Positions 871-9,877 of a DNA stretch of 38,699 nt are shown here, piece after piece (the first letter of the stretch is position 1; each line of letters starts with the position of its first letter). The stretch comes from Myxococcales bacterium. Its GTDB lineage: Bacteria > Myxococcota > Myxococcia > Myxococcales > JAJYLH01. Location of the stretch: positions 1 through 38,699 of the forward strand of contig JAJYLH010000052.1 of the NCBI GenBank assembly GCA_021787845.1, in the 5' to 3' direction. The notes below the pieces were generated by a model. It searched no databases, was not told the origin of the DNA, and saw only the letters and a list, made by a program, of their open reading frames with translations. Both the position numbers and the translations under genes were made by a program.

Positions 871-1416
871 ATGCGGCACACGATTTCGAACCACGGAAGT
901 CGTACTGCGATTGCCGGCTCCGAGCTCACGGTGATGTACCGCCGGGAGCGGCGCGCGGTGGTCTCGCAATGCCGGCGGATTCTCGGCGACGCGGAGGAGG
1001 CGAAAGACGTGGCGCAGGCCGCGTGGGCTCGACTCCTCACCTTGCTCCGCGACGGCGAGCAACCGTCGAACCTGGCTGCGTTCGTCAGGACGATGGCGAC
1101 CCATCTCTGCCTCGACCTACTTCGCTCCCGCAGGGTGAAAGCGTCGCACGACGGCCTTCTCGACGCCGGGGAGCGATCGGCCACGCCTCCAGATAGGATC
1201 GAACGGGATGAGTTGCTCGCTGCCGTTCTCTTGTCCTGCCCGCGAAAGACAAGCGACATCGCAACCCGATGGCTCGCGCGAGGGGAGAAGGCCGAAATCG
1301 CGCAATCGCTCCGCGTCTCCGAGCGCACCGTAGAGCGACATCTCGCGGCGTTCATCCGACATGCCGAGCGGCGGATCGTCCTGCATGCCGGATCGATCAC
1401 CGGCGGCCCCTGCTGA
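871..1416 (+). CDS. RNA polymerase sigma factor, ECF-like
   Basis: A 181-residue protein with the sigma-70 region 2 and region 4 layout of extracytoplasmic-function sigma factors. Region 2 is at about residues 20-60 (YRRERRAVVSQCRRIL...DAEEAKDVAQ), with RTMATHLCLDLLRSR continuing at 73-88. A divergent helix-turn-helix region 4 is at about 124-168 (KAEIAQSLRVSERTVERHL). The ATG at 871 follows GGGAGGGAGCG, a strong ribosome site. It would direct RNA polymerase to a small regulon. No anti-sigma gene adjoins it: the next genes run convergently (minus strand) and the left neighbour is transposon debris. The region 2 to 4 linker is short, as in ECF factors. Function as a sigma factor is confident; the target genes are unknown. 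Confidence 0.85.
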   Translation: MRHTISNHGSRTAIAGSELTVMYRRERRAVVSQCRRILGDAEEAKDVAQAAWARLLTLLRDGEQPSNLAAFVRTMATHLCLDLLRSRRVKASHDGLLDAGERSATPPDRIERDELLAAVLLSCPRKTSDIATRWLARGEKAEIAQSLRVSERTVERHLAAFIRHAERRIVLHAGSITGGPC

Positions 1417-1492: not shown

Positions 1493-1795
1493 TCATCGTT
1501 GGGACGAAACAGAACCCCCGTCCGCCCGTCCACCTGACGACGATGTCGAGCCGCCGTCCGGCATCACCGCCGCTCCCATGCAACACGAGAGGCCGGGCAC
1601 CGGGTACGGCGAACCATTCGAGTCACAGCTCACGTCGACGACGGGCCCCGAGCAGACGAGACCGTGCATGAGCGAGTAGCAATGGCCACCGGCTTGGGCA
1701 CATTTCGACCCCGCGTTCTGCTTCGCGGGTGGAGGGCCAACCAGGCCGCACCCTGAACCCACAACGAGCAGCAGAGCCAGAAGGAAGCTTCTCAT
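1493..1795 (-). CDS. Small Cys-rich lipoprotein (copy 2 of the cassette)
   Basis: A 100-residue exported protein. The N-terminus MRSFLLALLLVVGSGCGLV is a signal peptide ending in a lipobox-like GSGC, so lipid attachment is likely but not certain. The mature part has a Cys pattern CAQAGGHC ... LVC ... SCCMGAAVMPDGG, closely matching the lipoprotein at 2842-3111 (CAQSGGRC ... CC ... MCCDGTMVPRD). It ends in a Ser/Gly-rich low-complexity tail. It starts 11 bases after the stop of the secreted protein gene at 1807 and so looks like the last gene of the minus-strand unit. The paired cysteines suggest a disulphide-stabilised periplasmic or surface domain. I do not recognise a named family. Confidence 0.75.
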   Translation of the reverse strand: MRSFLLALLLVVGSGCGLVGPPPAKQNAGSKCAQAGGHCYSLMHGLVCSGPVVDVSCDSNGSPYPVPGLSCCMGAAVMPDGGSTSSSGGRADGGSVSSQR

Positions 1796-1806
1796 CAGGG
1801 TTGCCC

Positions 1807-2845
1807 TCAGTAGTAGAGGAGCGCAGTGTTACCGAAGAAGGTAAAGTTGCTGACCGATTGGTTGCACGCGCCGCCCAGCGGTTGCGCGATGCTGGACCAC
1901 TTTGATGGGTCGGTGCCCACGGTGTTACGACACCACCACCATGCGGGAACTGGCGGGGTCCATGGGTTGTCGCACTCATCCTGCATCTGCACGGCGATGA
2001 AAGCGGTCGAGCCGTTGGCTCCATCGGGATACTGGCTGCAGGACGTGACGCCGTACTCCTCCAGGACCCCCGTGTCAGCGTACTCGAACGAGACTCCAGG
2101 GTAATTCCACAAGTTCGCCGAGACGTAGGCCGAAGTCCCGTTGCTCGTATCGATCCACTCAACGGTGAAGTCGTCTCCGCCGCCCATCTCGACGATGCCC
2201 TCGATCACATCACCGACATTGACCTCAACAGGTGCGGTGTGCGCGACAACGTTGTCGCCTACGATGATCCAAGCGACCATGGCCCAGTATTGCCCCCCCA
2301 CCGGCTCCGCTCGTTCCCCACTGGAGCGCAGGTTGGAGAGCCGATGAGCTGGAAGCCCACAGGTCGTTGAAGAAGAACAGCGTCTGGCCGGTTCGCGTCG
2401 CCGGGTAGTCCGGCACATTCCACTCGCCGAAGATGTAGTTGAACGGCTTTCCCGCGTCGTAGAAGTACGAGTCGTCGACCCAGTTGGCGAGGTCGGGGTC
2501 CGGCAACGGTTGCTGGCTGGCGCCCGGTGCGCCCCGAACGGGTTGGTTGTGCGTTGGGATGATTTCCACCGTGCACCTGGGCAGCGTCTTGAGCAGCTTT
2601 CCATCGGCATCGATGACGTGCAGATCCTTGTCAACTCGAGCTCCGCTCGGGATCTCATGAACGCACGAGGGCCATGCGTAGCCGACCGGCGTTCTCACGT
2701 ACTTGCTCACATCCACCTGGGCCCGAGCGACCGTCGAGGCGCCGATCTGTACGAGGCACAGGATCGCAACCAAGAGCGCCTGACGCACGGCTCGATGGCG
2801 GCCACCGAATGCCTGCTGGGAAATGCCGGGGAAGTGACCTGTCAT
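1807..2845 (-). pseudogene. Secreted beta-sandwich-like protein, copy 2, frameshifted
   Basis: The start ATG at 2845 follows GGAGGA and overlaps the stop of the upstream lipoprotein gene (ATGA). The N-terminus is a signal peptide (RQALLVAILCLVQIG...ARAQ), then VDVSKYVRTPVGYAWPSC..., co-linear with the intact paralogue at 3126-4199. After LQWGTSGAGGG the frame breaks in a run of seven G (plus-strand C7 at 2293-2299). Removing one G restores the frame and continues QYWAMVAWI... to the shared end ...NTALLYY. Both halves are well conserved (LEEYGVTSCSQYPDGANGS, MQDEC, CRNTVGTDPS), so the frameshift is recent, a sequencing error, or a variable tract. Function is as for the paralogue. Repaired length would be about 345 residues. 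Confidence 0.8.
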
Positions 2846-3111
2846 GGCGTTCCTCCATCGTTCGTGTTGGCGCACTGTGAACCGGCGTCTCGTGGCACCA
2901 TCGTTCCATCGCAGCACATAACCTGCGGCCCGGGCGGCGGTGGCTGACCGTTGTCGATATAGCAGCTCTTGGGTAGAACAGTACCGCAACAGAAGTACGC
3001 GGGATCTGGGGCAACGCATCGGCCGCCTGATTGAGCACACTCCGAAACCGCTGACGAGCCCGGCGAACAACCGGCCAGCACGAAAATCGCAACGAGGACT
3101 GCTCCCTTCAA
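2842..3111 (-). CDS. Small Cys-rich lipoprotein (copy 1 of the cassette)
   Basis: An 89-residue protein with a clear lipoprotein signal: MKGAVLVAIFVLAGCSPG, lipobox LAGC, lipidation at Cys15. The mature region has about eight cysteines (CAQSGGRC, YFCCG, SCY, MCCDG, QC). It is a paralogue of the lipoprotein at 1493-1795. It starts 14 bases after the stop of the secreted protein gene at 3126, and its TGA overlaps the ATG of the next secreted gene (2845-2842), so translation of the two is probably coupled. Asp2-type residues are absent after the Cys (Ser follows), which fits outer-membrane sorting in Gram-negative rules. Its constant pairing with the secreted beta-sandwich-like protein suggests a partner or anchor; this is inference. 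Confidence 0.8.
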   Translation of the reverse strand: MKGAVLVAIFVLAGCSPGSSAVSECAQSGGRCVAPDPAYFCCGTVLPKSCYIDNGQPPPPGPQVMCCDGTMVPRDAGSQCANTNDGGTP

Positions 3112-3125
3112 GATGACACCCCCTT

Positions 3126-4199
3126 TCAGTAGTAAAGACTAGAGATCAGTATTCCGAATATGTTTCCGTTGCTGACCGAGAAGTTGCAGTCGGGGCCGTG
3201 GGAGCCGTTCGACTGCCAATCTTGCTGTTGCCAGGTCGACGGATCTGTGCCAACGGCCTGCCTACACCACCATTCCCTCGCGTTGCACTCATCTTGCATT
3301 CCGATGCCCATGAAGTTGGTACTGCCGTTGCTGCCATCCGGGTACTGATCGCAAGTTGTAACACCGTACTCCTCAAGAACTGCAGGGAAAGCGTCAGTGA
3401 ACTGGATTCCCGGGTAGGAGCCGGTCAGATCCACCGTAAGACCCTCGTCAGCTTCCCCGCCGCCAGAGTTGGACTCATCAATGGATTCAACAACGTACCC
3501 GGCGGGCCGACCAAGCTCGATGATGCCAAGGATTGTGTCGCCGGTGTGTACCGTCACCAGTGGCGTAACGGCCAGGGTCCACGAACCCGTGCCGTCAGAT
3601 GTCCCTTCCACCCACCAGTCGGCCATCCCCCAGTAGTCTCCTCCGCCAATGGGACTCACGCCCCATTGAAGCACTGGCTGGATGATGTCGATATAGTTGG
3701 ACGGACCTACATGATACGCCTGCAGTGCGTCGAAGAAGTACAGGAGCTGCCCCGACTCGGCCGGAGCATCTGGCACGTTCCACTGGTCCGCGATGTAGTT
3801 GAACACCTTGTTGCTGTCACTATACTCGGAGTCCTCGATCCATCCCCCCGTCGCTGGCACCGACGGTGTGTTGATAGCCACGACATCGGCGTGAGGAAAC
3901 GTCGGGATCATCGGGACCGTGCACTTCGGGAGCGTCTCGATCAGCGTCCCGTCGGGCCTGCGCACGTTACGGTTTCGGTCGATGCGCGACCCGGACGGAA
4001 CCACGTGAACGCAGGAGGGCCACACGTAACCGAATGGCGTCCTCGCGTACTTGCTCAGGTTGACCTGTGCCCGCGCCTCGCGGGGAAACCCCAACTGAAG
4101 GACGAGCAAGGCGGCAACGATCAGGAGCCGGGCCCCGGTACGCCCCACGGTTCCGCGCGTGGGAGGCAAGACCACCTTGGACAGCCGAAACGCTCTCAT
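3126..4199 (-). CDS. Secreted beta-sandwich-like protein (possible G1/eqolisin- or neprosin-like), copy 1
   Basis: About 357 residues. ATG at 4199 is chosen because GAGGTG precedes it; a GTG at 4211 is possible. A signal peptide (ARLLIVAALLVLQLGFPREARAQ) with ARA cleavage is followed by NLSKYARTPFGYVWPSCVH. The body is rich in Trp, Gly, Asp and beta-strand-like segments: QWNVPDAP, IIQPVLQWG, GGDYWGMADWWV, HTGDTILGIIELG, then LEEYGVTTCDQYPDG, MQDECN and a terminal SLYY. The Gln of LQWG and the Glu of LEEYG are kept in both copies, which would suit an eqolisin-type Glu/Gln pair, but I cannot prove peptidase activity. It is the first gene of the minus-strand unit and is followed by its lipoprotein partner. 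Family assignment is tentative; export is confident. Confidence 0.8.
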   Translation of the reverse strand: MRAFRLSKVVLPPTRGTVGRTGARLLIVAALLVLQLGFPREARAQVNLSKYARTPFGYVWPSCVHVVPSGSRIDRNRNVRRPDGTLIETLPKCTVPMIPTFPHADVVAINTPSVPATGGWIEDSEYSDSNKVFNYIADQWNVPDAPAESGQLLYFFDALQAYHVGPSNYIDIIQPVLQWGVSPIGGGDYWGMADWWVEGTSDGTGSWTLAVTPLVTVHTGDTILGIIELGRPAGYVVESIDESNSGGGEADEGLTVDLTGSYPGIQFTDAFPAVLEEYGVTTCDQYPDGSNGSTNFMGIGMQDECNAREWWCRQAVGTDPSTWQQQDWQSNGSHGPDCNFSVSNGNIFGILISSLYY

Positions 4200-4725
4200 G
4201 TCGCACCTCACGAAACTGCCGTCACTGGTCGCGGGTCCGTCCCGTGCCCATGCCCTTCATCTGGTAGACGTTTGAGCCGGGCACGCCGCGACACCGGACG
4301 GAAAAGACTCGTGTTCCGGCGGACGTGCGACGGCCCTCGGAGGCCGATGCGTTGCGCCGGTAGAGTCCGACGAGTCGGCTCGCGTTCAAGCCCGCTTCCT
4401 GCACGAGTAGATCTCTTCCTTGCCAGGCCCTCGCGTTCTTCGAGCGAAAGCGGAAGCTGTGGTCAGGCGCTCACGCGTAAGGCGCCCAAGCGGCCCTCGG
4501 GCGCGAACCCGTGCCTTGGTGGCGTCAAGATCGCGGTCGCTGGCGAGGTGGTCCGCATGGTTCACGAGTGGAGGGAGCGTACATGTTCTGTCCGGAAGCG
4601 TCAAGTCGAGCGCTCGGGCCTGGGGTCGAGACGAGCTTCTCCCGGCGGGCTACCTGAAAGCGCCCGCGGAAGAGCTGCCGGAAAGATCGAGACGAGCTAC
4701 GCCGCCATCAGCGGCGGGCCGCGGG

Positions 4726-4748
4726 CGTGGTTCGACAAGCTCACCATG
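4726..4748. repeat. Short repeat (GTTCGACAAGCTCACCATGAGCGG type)
   Basis: The core TTCGACAAGCTCACCATGAGCGG resembles family A (TTCGACTGCGCTCAGGATGAGCGG) in length and layout. It lies inside the C-terminal codons of the dead IS91 transposase, just after AHTGET, and replaces the expected C-terminus. Confidence 0.6.
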
Positions 4749-5036
4749 AGCGGGGTGGTCTCGCCGGTGTGGGCGAGGTAGCGGGCAATCTCGTCGGGGT
4801 CGTGCAGCACGGCGATCGGGCGGAGGCGTCCTTTACAGCGAGAACATTCGAGGGCGTCACCGCCCCACGTCCGGCGGCACAGCTCGGCCCAGAGGAGCCG
4901 CTCGGCGTGCGGCAGTGCAGCAGCGGCCTCGCTCGGCACTGGCTCGGCCATCGGAGGGAGAGCAGCGGTGCCGCTTGGCGGCGGCTCGTCGTGGCGGTGC
5001 TCGCAGGCCGAGCCTCGGCGCTTGGTCGGCGCGGGC

Positions 5037-5072
5037 ACCACGATCCCTCGACTGCGCTCGGGATGAGCGGGA
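5037..5072. repeat. Family A repeat inside the IS91 transposase
   Basis: CCCTCGACTGCGCTCGGGAT followed by GAGCGGG. It marks the frame change between ...ILAPAAK and the C-terminal part of the transposase. Single (unpaired) copy. Confidence 0.75.
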
Positions 5073-5816
5073 TTTCGCCGCCGGGGCGAGGATTCCGAAG
5101 TACTTGCGAGTCGGATGGCCCGGCCCGGGGATGAGGCTGGCGAGCCGCATCAACAGCTCGATCGGCGTGAGCACGAGCGCGGTGTCGCCGTGGCGATCCG
5201 GCTTCTTGAGCCGGTAGGAGAGCAGCCCATCCGGTCGCTCGGTGAGGCGCGCGCTCGAAATCGGTCCGCGCAGGAGATAGCGGCACACGCGCTCCATCCG
5301 GTCGCGATCGTTTCCGTCGATGGGAGAGGAGGCGTAAACGTGGAGTCCCGAAGGTGTCGTCGCCACGAGGCCGCCTTTCGGATGCTCCACCTCGTCTTCT
5401 TCCACCAGCCCGCTATCATGGTGAGCGCAGTCGAACCACGCGCCGGAGCGCTCCCGCTGTCCTTGTCGAAGCGCCACCTGAGCGCACGCCCCGAGCGCAT
5501 CGAGCGCCGGCGGCTCGTTCGTCTGCTCCTCCGCCGGCGTCTGCGTCAGCAGCCCGCGCCGGGCGAGGAGCATCTGGAGCCGCCGATCGAGATCCGTCGC
5601 CAGCTCGCGCAGCTCTTCCGGTGTCGTCCTCGGCGCGCGCACAAAGGTCAGGGCATCGCCCGGCTCGCCCACGAAAGCGCCGTCCAACAGAAGTAAGTGG
5701 GCATGCGGGTGGAGATTGAGCGAGCTCCCAAAACGATGCCGGACCAGCACTCCGCCGGAGCGCCCTCGCTGGCATCGCCGCTCCTGCCAGCGCATTAGCG
5801 TGCGCGTCACCACTTG

Positions 5817-5905
5817 GCCCGCTCATCCTGAGCGACCGAAGGGAGTCGAAGGACGCGCGCAAGAGCTCTGGCTGAATCCTTCGACTTCGCTCAGGATGAG
5901 CGGGA
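5817..5905. repeat. Family A inverted pair inside the IS91 transposase
   Basis: Left arm CGCTCATCCTGAGCGACCGA...GTCGAAGGA and right arm TCCTTCGACTTCGCTCAGGA...GAGCGG are reverse complements flanking a ~30-base spacer, so the element can form a long hairpin. It replaces transposase codons between ...WVVSYPF and ...TRTLMRWQE and shifts the frame. Confidence 0.8.
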
Positions 5906-6118
5906 CGCGCCGAGCCGATCGCGAACGGGTAGCTCACTACCCACTGCCGCACGGGCGCGCGCGGGAGCACGTGATCCACCAGGTGCGCGGCACCATCGGC
6001 CATCGCGCGAGCCGCGCACGAGGGGCAGGTGCCGCGGCGCTTGCAGGAGAACGCCAGGATCTCCTCGTGGCCGCAGGCATCGCACTTGAGGCGCCTACTC
6101 CTGAGGCGATGGACGCCC

Positions 6119-6151
6119 TGCCGGTACCCGGACACTCACGTGTCCGGCTCC
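6119..6151. repeat. Family B repeat inside the IS91 transposase
   Basis: The palindromic core CCCGGACACTCACGTGTCCG plus GCTCC lies between the codons for ...GGLPRFI and the zinc-binding segment. It is one of seven copies in the window (see 16951, 17050, 21398, 21671, 24678, 24830). Confidence 0.8.
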
Positions 6152-7720: not shown

Positions 7721-7970
7721 CGTACCTCCAGATGTGCGCGCCCGGTTCGCCCGGGAGCGAAAGGGGTCGGTCTTCGATGGGGAGGGCCGGCCGGGGATGT
7801 CGCATCGCAGATTAGCCGACGCCATCGCGGGCTGTCAAGCGACCGTCCTTCGACTGCGCTCAGGACGAGCGGTGGGGAAGCACGGGCGGGAGTCCTGGAC
7901 CGGTTGGCTCGATTCCTCGGGCGACTCCCGACTCGTCCGGGCCGGAACCGGTGGGGCCCGCCTCGGGGGG

Positions 7971-8075
7971 CAGGAGCGTTCGAGCCGGGGGCAGGAGCGT
8001 TCGAGCCGGGGGCAGGAGCGTTCGAGCCGGGGGCAGGAGCGTTCGAGCCGGGGGCAGGAGCGTTCGAGCCGGGGG
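7971..8075. repeat. Tandem array, five 21-bp units
   Basis: Five perfect copies of CAGGAGCGTTCGAGCCGGGG plus one G, starting at 7971, 7992, 8013, 8034 and 8055. Identity between units implies recent expansion or homogenisation. Confidence 0.95.
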
Positions 8076-8280
8076 CAGAGGGCTCGAGCGGGGGGCAGGA
8101 CCGTTCGGGACGGGGGCAGAGGGCTCGAGCGGGGGGCAGGACCGTTCGGGACGGGGGCAGAGGGCTCGAGCTGGGGGCAGGACCGTTCGGGACGGGGGCA
8201 GAGGGTTCGGGCTGGGGGCAGGACCGTTCGGGACGGGGGCAGAGGGCTCGAGCTGGGGGCAGGACCGGTCGAGCTGGGGG
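8076..8280. repeat. Tandem array, five 41-bp composite units
   Basis: Each 41-bp unit is a 20-mer (CAGAGGGCTCGAGCKGGGGG) plus a 21-mer (CAGGACCGTTCGGGACGGGG + G), starting at 8076, 8117, 8158, 8199 and 8240. A partial 12-base unit follows at 8281-8292. Units differ by a few bases (TTCGGG for CTCGAG in the fourth; GGTCGAGCT in the last). The two half-units are evidently diverged versions of the adjoining 21-bp repeat. Confidence 0.95.
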
Positions 8281-8360
8281 CAGAGGGCTCGTCCCCCACC
8301 CTCTCGTCGCTGGCGGGTTGTCGCCTTCGTTCCGGCTCGGGCCGGATTTCCGTCGCTCTC

Positions 8361-8455: not shown

Positions 8456-8665
8456 AGAAGAACCCGCATCGACCGCTCGCGAGGAGCGGCGTTGCCCAGG
8501 CGGCGGCTTCGGTGTCCAATCCCGCGCGCTCGTCCCTCGACTGCGCTCGGGATGAGCGGGGGCGGGCCGCTCGGGATGAGCGGTGTCCGTCGACTGGCGC
8601 TCAGGATGACCGCTCGGGATGAGCGGCGTTGCCCACGTCCGATGCGGCGAACCAGAAAACCACCC

Positions 8666-9877
8666 ATGCCCAGCACCCCCGCCGCCGACAAGCACAGCCT
8701 CCTGCGAGGACCGCTCCTCGCCTTGCTGATCTTTCGCGTCCTGCGCAGCCTCGCCGCGGGGATGATCACCATCGCCTTCCCGTACCTCGTCCTCCAGGAC
8801 CTGCGCCTGAGCGCGCTCGCGCTCGGCCTCATCTACACCGCGGCGACCGTCGCCACCGCGCTCTTCGGCCTGACCTTCGGCGTGCTCGCGGACGTGTGGG
8901 GCCGGCGAAAGACCCTCCTCGTCGTCGCCGTGATGCTCCCGTTGAGCGCAGGCCTGGTCGTCGTCGGCCACAGCCTGCCCTTGCTCTTCGCGGCGGCGGT
9001 CGTCGGTGGCTACTCCGCGACCGGCTCCTTGATGGGCGGCGGCGTCGGCGGGGCGGCGATGCCGATCCAGACAGCCGTCCTCGCGAGCCTGCTCGGCTCC
9101 GAGAGGCGCACCTTCTACTTCTCGTTCTTCACCTTCGTCAGCGGCATGGCGGCGGCCTTCGGTGTCCTCGCGGCCAAGCCCTTCTCCAACGCCGAGATCT
9201 TCGCCGCGGCGACCGTCCTCTCGGGCTTGAGCGCGCTCCTCGTCCTGCCGCTCGACGTGCCGGAGCACCCGGGCCAGTTGCGACGCTTGAAGAGCCTGAA
9301 GACCATCGGCAAGTTCTCGGCGACGGGAATCCTCAACGGCTTCACGCAAGGGCTCATCACGCCGTTTCTGGTGCCGTTCTTCCTGCTCGTCTACGGGCTC
9401 TCGAAGGAGCAGATGGCCGGCTACGGGTTCTTCGCGGGCGCGCTGGGGTCGATTTCGCTGCTCGCGGCGCCATGGCTGGACAAGAAGATGGGCTTCGTGC
9501 GCGCCATCGCGGTCACCCGGGGCCTGGGTGCGATCCTCGTCGCCCTGCTGCCGGTGATCGGGAGCCTCAAGCTGGCGCTCGCGTTCTACATCCTGATTCC
9601 GCCGCTGCGGGTCGCCGCCTTGCCAGCCCAACAGCGCGCGCTCACCGACATGGTCGAGAGCGACGAGACCGGCCGCGCTCTGGGCATCAATCAGGTGACG
9701 CGTCTCGCCGCCTCCTCCGGCGCCACCACCGCGACCGGCGTGCTCTTCTCGGAGATGGAGTTCGCGCCACCGTTCTTCGTCTACGCCGGGCTGATGGTGG
9801 TCAACATCTACCTCTACTTCCGCTTCTTCGGCCGCTCCCCGGAGCGGTTCGCCGGCGCCCCGCGCGAGGAGGCGTGA
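8666..9877 (+). CDS. Major facilitator superfamily (MFS) transporter
   Basis: A 403-residue integral membrane protein with about 12 hydrophobic segments. After TM2 it has the MFS motif A, GVLADVWGRRKTLL (about residues 71-84). A Gly-rich segment GGYSATGSLMGGGVGGAA follows TM4, and a long cytoplasmic loop after TM6 is basic (EHPGQLRRLKSLKTIGK). ATG at 8666 is preferred by analogy with the duplicated fragment; ATG at 8642 is an in-frame alternative and neither has a clear ribosome site. It would be a proton-linked importer or exporter of a small molecule; the substrate cannot be told. It stands alone, between repeats on both sides, and its 5' end is duplicated at 152-459. Confidence 0.88.
   Translation: MPSTPAADKHSLLRGPLLALLIFRVLRSLAAGMITIAFPYLVLQDLRLSALALGLIYTAATVATALFGLTFGVLADVWGRRKTLLVVAVMLPLSAGLVVVGHSLPLLFAAAVVGGYSATGSLMGGGVGGAAMPIQTAVLASLLGSERRTFYFSFFTFVSGMAAAFGVLAAKPFSNAEIFAAATVLSGLSALLVLPLDVPEHPGQLRRLKSLKTIGKFSATGILNGFTQGLITPFLVPFFLLVYGLSKEQMAGYGFFAGALGSISLLAAPWLDKKMGFVRAIAVTRGLGAILVALLPVIGSLKLALAFYILIPPLRVAALPAQQRALTDMVESDETGRALGINQVTRLAASSGATTATGVLFSEMEFAPPFFVYAGLMVVNIYLYFRFFGRSPERFAGAPREEA

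Follow-up and report, generated by a model that had tools for sequence, protein, structure and literature searches.

To our knowledge, few catalytic classes of protease studied so far are as rare as the glutamic peptidases, which are represented by a handful of fungal, bacterial and plant enzymes. The solved fungal eqolisins use a catalytic pair of Q53 and E136 (PMC6154417), and fungal G1 precursors mature by self-cleavage of a linker (PMC3009609). The zymogen of neprosin is activated by acid and cuts its own linker, a model for the possible activation of the protein described here (PMC9343461). We analyzed a window of 38,699 nucleotides, contig 20 of the 6.24-Mb draft genome of a Myxococcales bacterium. 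The large secreted protein encoded there is best read as a divergent glutamic peptidase whose N-terminal domain probably serves as a pro-domain.

The gene for this protein, large1 (3126-4199, minus strand), is an intact open reading frame of 357 aa (P0001), predicted from its modeled fold to encode an eqolisin-like protein. It is followed on the same strand by small1 (2842-3111), which starts with TTG and encodes an 89-aa Cys-rich lipoprotein (P0002), then by large2 (1807-2845), a paralog of large1, and by small2 (1493-1795), which encodes a 100-aa Cys-rich lipoprotein-like protein (P0004) paralogous to small1. Large1 and small1 are 14 bp apart, small1 and large2 overlap by ATGA, and large2 and small2 are separated by 11 bp. 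Just 5' of each of the four starts we recognized by eye a purine-rich stretch resembling a ribosome-binding site. The coordinates thus bear out the tight large-small-large-small order given by the first-pass annotation, which however took large2 for a whole gene and overlooked a break in its frame. Its proposal that both the large and the small proteins are paralogs also holds, more weakly for the small ones. Large1 and large2, the latter read across the break, share 44% identity over 353 columns (E=1e-88) and are sister rows in a 29-member tree of the family (support 98/97), so the pair was duplicated within its own lineage, long ago. Small1 and small2 share 39% identity over 56 aa, with six Cys in common. 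The G+C content of the array is 61%, compared with 68% for the window. No second copy of the large protein was found in this genome outside the array, and no other genome of the same family was found among the relatives searched.

The frame of large2 breaks at a run of seven G (2293-2299, minus strand). Past it, the 3' half (about 2298-1807) is out of frame with the 5' half, and the homology continues in each frame. Both halves are free of stops and retain the conserved residues: in pairwise and family alignments the codons at 2333-2335 and, in the out-of-frame half, 2059-2061 (both minus strand) match the proposed catalytic Gln and Glu codons of large1. This leaves three readings of the break: a recent event, a fault of the assembly, or slippage at this site. 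With its frame broken, large2 may be inactive at present. A related peptidase gene in the same order (L003, 1387-2530, in a genome of 5,029,329 bp) is also broken, near the catalytic Gln, has no visible signal peptide and is probably a pseudogene. Programmed frameshifting as a signal common to the two was rejected, as the L003 break does not lie in a homopolymer.

The surroundings of the array contain several further elements. An ECF-type sigma factor gene (871-1416, plus strand; Sigma70_r2, 1e-12) is convergent with small2 and is a possible regulator. Directly upstream of the array lies a decayed IS91-family transposase (4697-6135, minus strand), with Zn_Tnp_IS91 and Y2_Tnp in different frames. 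A 300-bp direct repeat, 98% identical between its copies at 147-446 and 8486-8785, flanks the array and transposase region and carries the apparent start of a transporter gene. The short repeat TCC(C/T)TCGACTxCGCTCxGGAxGAGCGG is dispersed at 194-236, 5044-5086, 5877-5919, 7846-7888 and 8533-8575, also within the transposase frames. A tandem array at 7967-8316 consists of units of about 41 bp, each made of two of about 20 bp, with long open frames on both strands. No Rfam family was found within the window, and promoter and terminator scans gave nothing above shuffles.

Searched singly against Pfam, NCBIfam and PDB sequences, the large proteins gave no significant match, and their family is unnamed in any of these libraries. 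A single-sequence scan of named genomes was likewise without a match, whereas an alignment-based scan of the same genomes retrieved 27 loci, a lower bound as the scan requires exact motif matches. The hosts are myxobacteria, Acidobacteriota, Chromobacterium, Trinickia/Paraburkholderia (Burkholderiaceae) and a few other Pseudomonadota. Within the phylum the family is present in only 5 of the 195 genomes searched, and the plasmid records searched contained none. What we describe of the family rests on one intact protein in the window and about 28 relatives. Their architecture is constant: a signal peptide, a domain with a Cys motif, a variable linker and a last domain of 200-240 residues. Large1 carries a predicted Sec signal peptide of about residues 1-44 (4068-4199, minus strand) ending in REARA/Q. 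The folded N-terminal domain that follows (3897-4067, minus strand), a candidate pro-domain, includes Cys63 and Cys93. In the family this domain is marked by the motif TPFGYFHPSCV, of which TPxGYxxPSC is invariant, and by a second Cys about 30 residues further on. In large1 it was modeled at pLDDT 83-94 and is succeeded by the low-confidence variable linker and the putative catalytic β-sandwich domain (3129-3848, minus strand), assigned by AlphaFold, Foldseek and a G1 profile match.

An AlphaFold2 model of large1 from a 30-row alignment reached pLDDT 83.3 and pTM 0.86. Its eight best Foldseek matches in the PDB are all glutamic peptidases: scytalidoglutamic peptidase (SGP) and SCP-B come first (2ifr, 2ifw and 1s2b, at E 2e-6 to 8e-6), followed by five entries of neprosin (E 3e-5 to 1e-4). 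The predicted model thus shows the SGP type of two seven-stranded antiparallel sheets, with a match probability of 1.00 to 2ifr, 2ifw and 1s2b. TM-scores to SGP are modest, at 0.37-0.41 by query and 0.54-0.60 by target. Sequence profiles point the same way. Our comparison set of canonical G1 enzymes came from bacterial genomes that also carry the large-protein family, and its members hit SGP and aspergillopepsin II at around 1e-12. Against this set the catalytic-domain profile scored 38.3, compared with a mean of 13.2 and a maximum of 18.7 in 40 column shuffles; the whole-protein profile scored 38.1, while reversing the columns gave 17.0 and the highest of 50 shuffles reached 25.4. Nevertheless, all members tested miss the PF01828 cut-off of 22.3 bits (large1 gave no hit, large2 15.7 and the best member 20.9), and the G1 motifs WVGIDG and AEWI are absent from the family alignment. 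We therefore describe the family as eqolisin-like and refrain from assigning it to G1.

The two residues that would carry out catalysis are Q174 and E276. Q174 (3678-3680, minus strand), in the context IIQPVLQWG, is invariant in 29 of 29 homologs and falls on the G1 catalytic Gln in the profile alignment. E276 (3372-3374, minus strand), in VLEEYGV, is invariant in 27 of 27 homologs and is the only invariant acidic residue. Cys apart, these two are the only fully invariant polar residues of the last domain. E276 lies in a β-strand of the right order but past the confident part of the profile alignment, in which it did not fall on the G1 Glu; from order and strand we infer its equivalence to SGP Glu136. 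We propose, from sequence, that Q174 and E276 form an eqolisin-type Gln/Glu pair. An eqolisin-like peptidase had been conjectured in the first-pass annotation from the Gln of LQWG and a Glu of LEEYG. The conjecture itself is well supported by the fold, the controlled profile comparison and the invariant pair, and the first Glu of LEEYG is indeed E276; the LQWG Gln was misplaced, being replaced by A or G in most members, and the true invariant residue is the Gln of IIQP four residues earlier. A protein with an eqolisin/concanavalin-like fold could also lack peptidase function and serve, for instance, in binding or adhesion with the lipoprotein as its partner. ConA-like folds are common to lectins and glucanases, both of which rank further down among the Foldseek matches, and the family shares very little overall sequence identity with G1. 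We consider this distinctly unlikely given that the top structural matches are all glutamic peptidases and that the only fully invariant catalytic-type residues of the catalytic domain are a Gln and a Glu, an invariance hard to expect in the absence of catalysis.

Neprosin, the other group among the structural matches, does not include the family. The large proteins have no Pfam match to PF03080, and membership was rejected because hhalign against myxobacterial neprosins scored nothing above shuffles with either domain. A Glu/Glu pair of the neprosin type is not present either, as the family has only one invariant Glu and its other invariant residue is a Gln. We also rejected a kinship of the N-terminal domain with the neprosin activation peptide, which a likeness seen by eye ([ST]PxG....CV) had brought up; hhalign gave 11.5, compared with a shuffle mean of 10.6. 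Since the neprosin profile compared with that of G1 yielded nothing above shuffles either, the large-protein family is nearer to eqolisins than neprosin is. True neprosins (PF03080) occur separately: among 189 genomes of the phylum, 13 carry them, and 10 of 13 myxobacterial neprosins read by eye as lipoproteins with lipobox-like signals. Lipid anchoring of glutamic peptidases thus seems to be a habit of myxobacteria.

Searches of the small proteins against Pfam and NCBIfam gave no hit above threshold. Lipoboxes were assigned by eye: that of small1 (LAGC) is canonical and gave 12 bits with PF08139, under the cut-off of 20, and that of small2 (GSGC) is non-canonical. The structure model of the small protein (pLDDT 59, pTM 0.42) was too poor for use. 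A third domain of the small1/small2 type is encoded on contig 80 of the same genome (L077/L078), where it forms the N-terminal part of a 509-aa lipoprotein. The same protein also has three antistasin modules and numerous further Cys-rich repeats. Antistasin is a protease-inhibitor family, and the small lipoproteins might accordingly serve as inhibitors for self-protection, blocking the co-secreted peptidase at the surface of the producer until release or acidification. Their small size, six conserved Cys, probable lipid anchor and shared operon with the peptidase would all suit this role. However, the antistasin module is at the same time a generic Cys-rich module of extracellular proteins, partner families vary between loci, and the peptidase already has a candidate pro-domain. 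Inhibition is the main rival to lipid tethering in trans, the best-supported role of the small proteins, and we judge it unlikely.

The first-pass annotation argued that the two products work together, and suggested that homologs consistently lacking the lipoprotein would speak against this. We compared five distinct myxobacterial loci: the window, L027 (= L009), L079 (= L010), L003 and L017 (= L002). A Cys-rich lipoprotein gene lies directly downstream of the peptidase in four of the five, and the window has two such pairs. In L027 it lies 21 bp after the peptidase stop (6035), and the mature part of its product has ten Cys. The partner in L079 has 20 Cys and begins about 17 bp after the stop; that in L003 begins 66-93 bp past the frame-broken gene. 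The peptidase of L017 has no partner gene, and its own signal ends in LLWAC/G, a non-canonical lipobox-like site. A mechanical detector of Cys-rich lipoproteins, strict enough to miss small1 and the L003 partner, matched at three of the five loci. Its background was 7 candidates in 618 kb of two genomes bearing such loci, about 11 per Mb. By chance, a lipoprotein gene would then start no more than 100 bp downstream, and on the right strand, with a probability of about 6e-4 per locus. At the loci of about 24 non-myxobacterial homologs the detector found no partner lipoprotein. These data indicate that the association is real and confined to myxobacteria, and that the peptidase needs no partner in general. 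The proposed cooperation is thus supported in myxobacteria, where three further loci are paired, while the homologs standing alone outside them go halfway towards the argument against it.

No sequence similarity was found between the partner lipoproteins of different loci, which argues against a specific binding partner, expected to share sequence. The two genes could instead be linked only loosely, as independent surface proteins co-regulated in one operon, a reading to which both the non-homologous partners and the homologs that manage without one would lend themselves. We hold it to be quite improbable, because a downstream Cys-rich lipoprotein at four of five loci stands against so sparse a background, and because the sole unpaired myxobacterial peptidase has a lipobox-like site of its own.

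Returning to tethering, we suggest the following course of events. The large protein would be exported by its signal peptide, with the disulfide-bearing N-terminal domain probably acting as a pro-domain during folding. The co-expressed small protein, lipid-modified and disulfide-rich, would bind the peptidase and tether it in trans to the cell surface, and might in addition maintain its fold or restrain it until it is needed. The peptidase would mature by cutting its own linker, perhaps at low pH as neprosin and fungal G1 precursors do, and Q174 and E276 in the β-sandwich would activate water to cut the peptide bonds of extracellular protein, prey protein being a natural guess. Catalysis, zymogen activation, lipidation, binding and tethering are all putative here. 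Gene order, family, predicted fold, the invariant Gln and Glu and the recurrence of the pairing in myxobacteria support this account, and the lipobox-like site of the unpaired L002/L017 homolog and the mostly lipoprotein-like myxobacterial neprosins count for tethering. Against it stand the missed PF01828 cut-off, the modest TM-scores to SGP, the placement of E276, the unpaired homologs outside myxobacteria and the non-canonical lipoboxes of small2 and L002 (LLWAC). Weighing these, we give the whole reading, a secreted eqolisin-fold peptidase with a pro-domain and Q174/E276 tethered by a bound lipoprotein, an even chance of being right. Somewhat short of even is the broader proposal that myxobacteria have a distinct family of Gln/Glu glutamic peptidases as part of a two-gene module. 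The peptidase itself would be soluble, and a separate Cys-rich lipoprotein dedicated to it would anchor it in trans and perhaps restrain it; different lineages would have exchanged this partner for unrelated Cys-rich lipoproteins, and the array described here would be a tandem duplication of the module. If this holds, the class of glutamic peptidases would reach cultivable bacteria, Chromobacterium and Trinickia, through an unannotated bacterial family that has an eqolisin-type pair and an N-terminal domain of its own. Placing or controlling such an enzyme through a lipoprotein in trans would likewise be new, and of interest for myxobacterial predation and acid-active proteases.

Compared with described systems, the small proteins are set apart from antistasin-type (PF02822) and MXAN_6577-like (NF041328) lipoproteins by matching no family above threshold themselves; links to both exist, as another protein of this genome joins a domain of the small1 type to three antistasin modules and the L027 peptidase ends in an MXAN_6577-like Cys-rich tail. 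Neprosin (MEROPS G3/PF03080; zymogen 7ZVA) resembles the large protein in overall fold (E 2.7e-5, TM 0.46) and in having a folded N-terminal domain and linker ahead of the catalytic domain, but its dyad is Glu/Glu where the large-protein family has a proposed Gln/Glu pair. Eqolisins (MEROPS G1/PF01828, including SGP 2IFR/2IFW/1S2B, aspergillopepsin II and bacterial pepG1) are likewise secreted and share the β-sandwich fold, a Gln/Glu pair (proposed for the large proteins) with its Gln in an [IV]-x-Q strand motif, and significant profile similarity over about 106 columns. Overall sequence identity to them is nevertheless very low, the G1 sequences compared lack the N-terminal Cys-bearing TPxGYFHPSC domain, and the lipoprotein partner is a feature of the myxobacterial large proteins.
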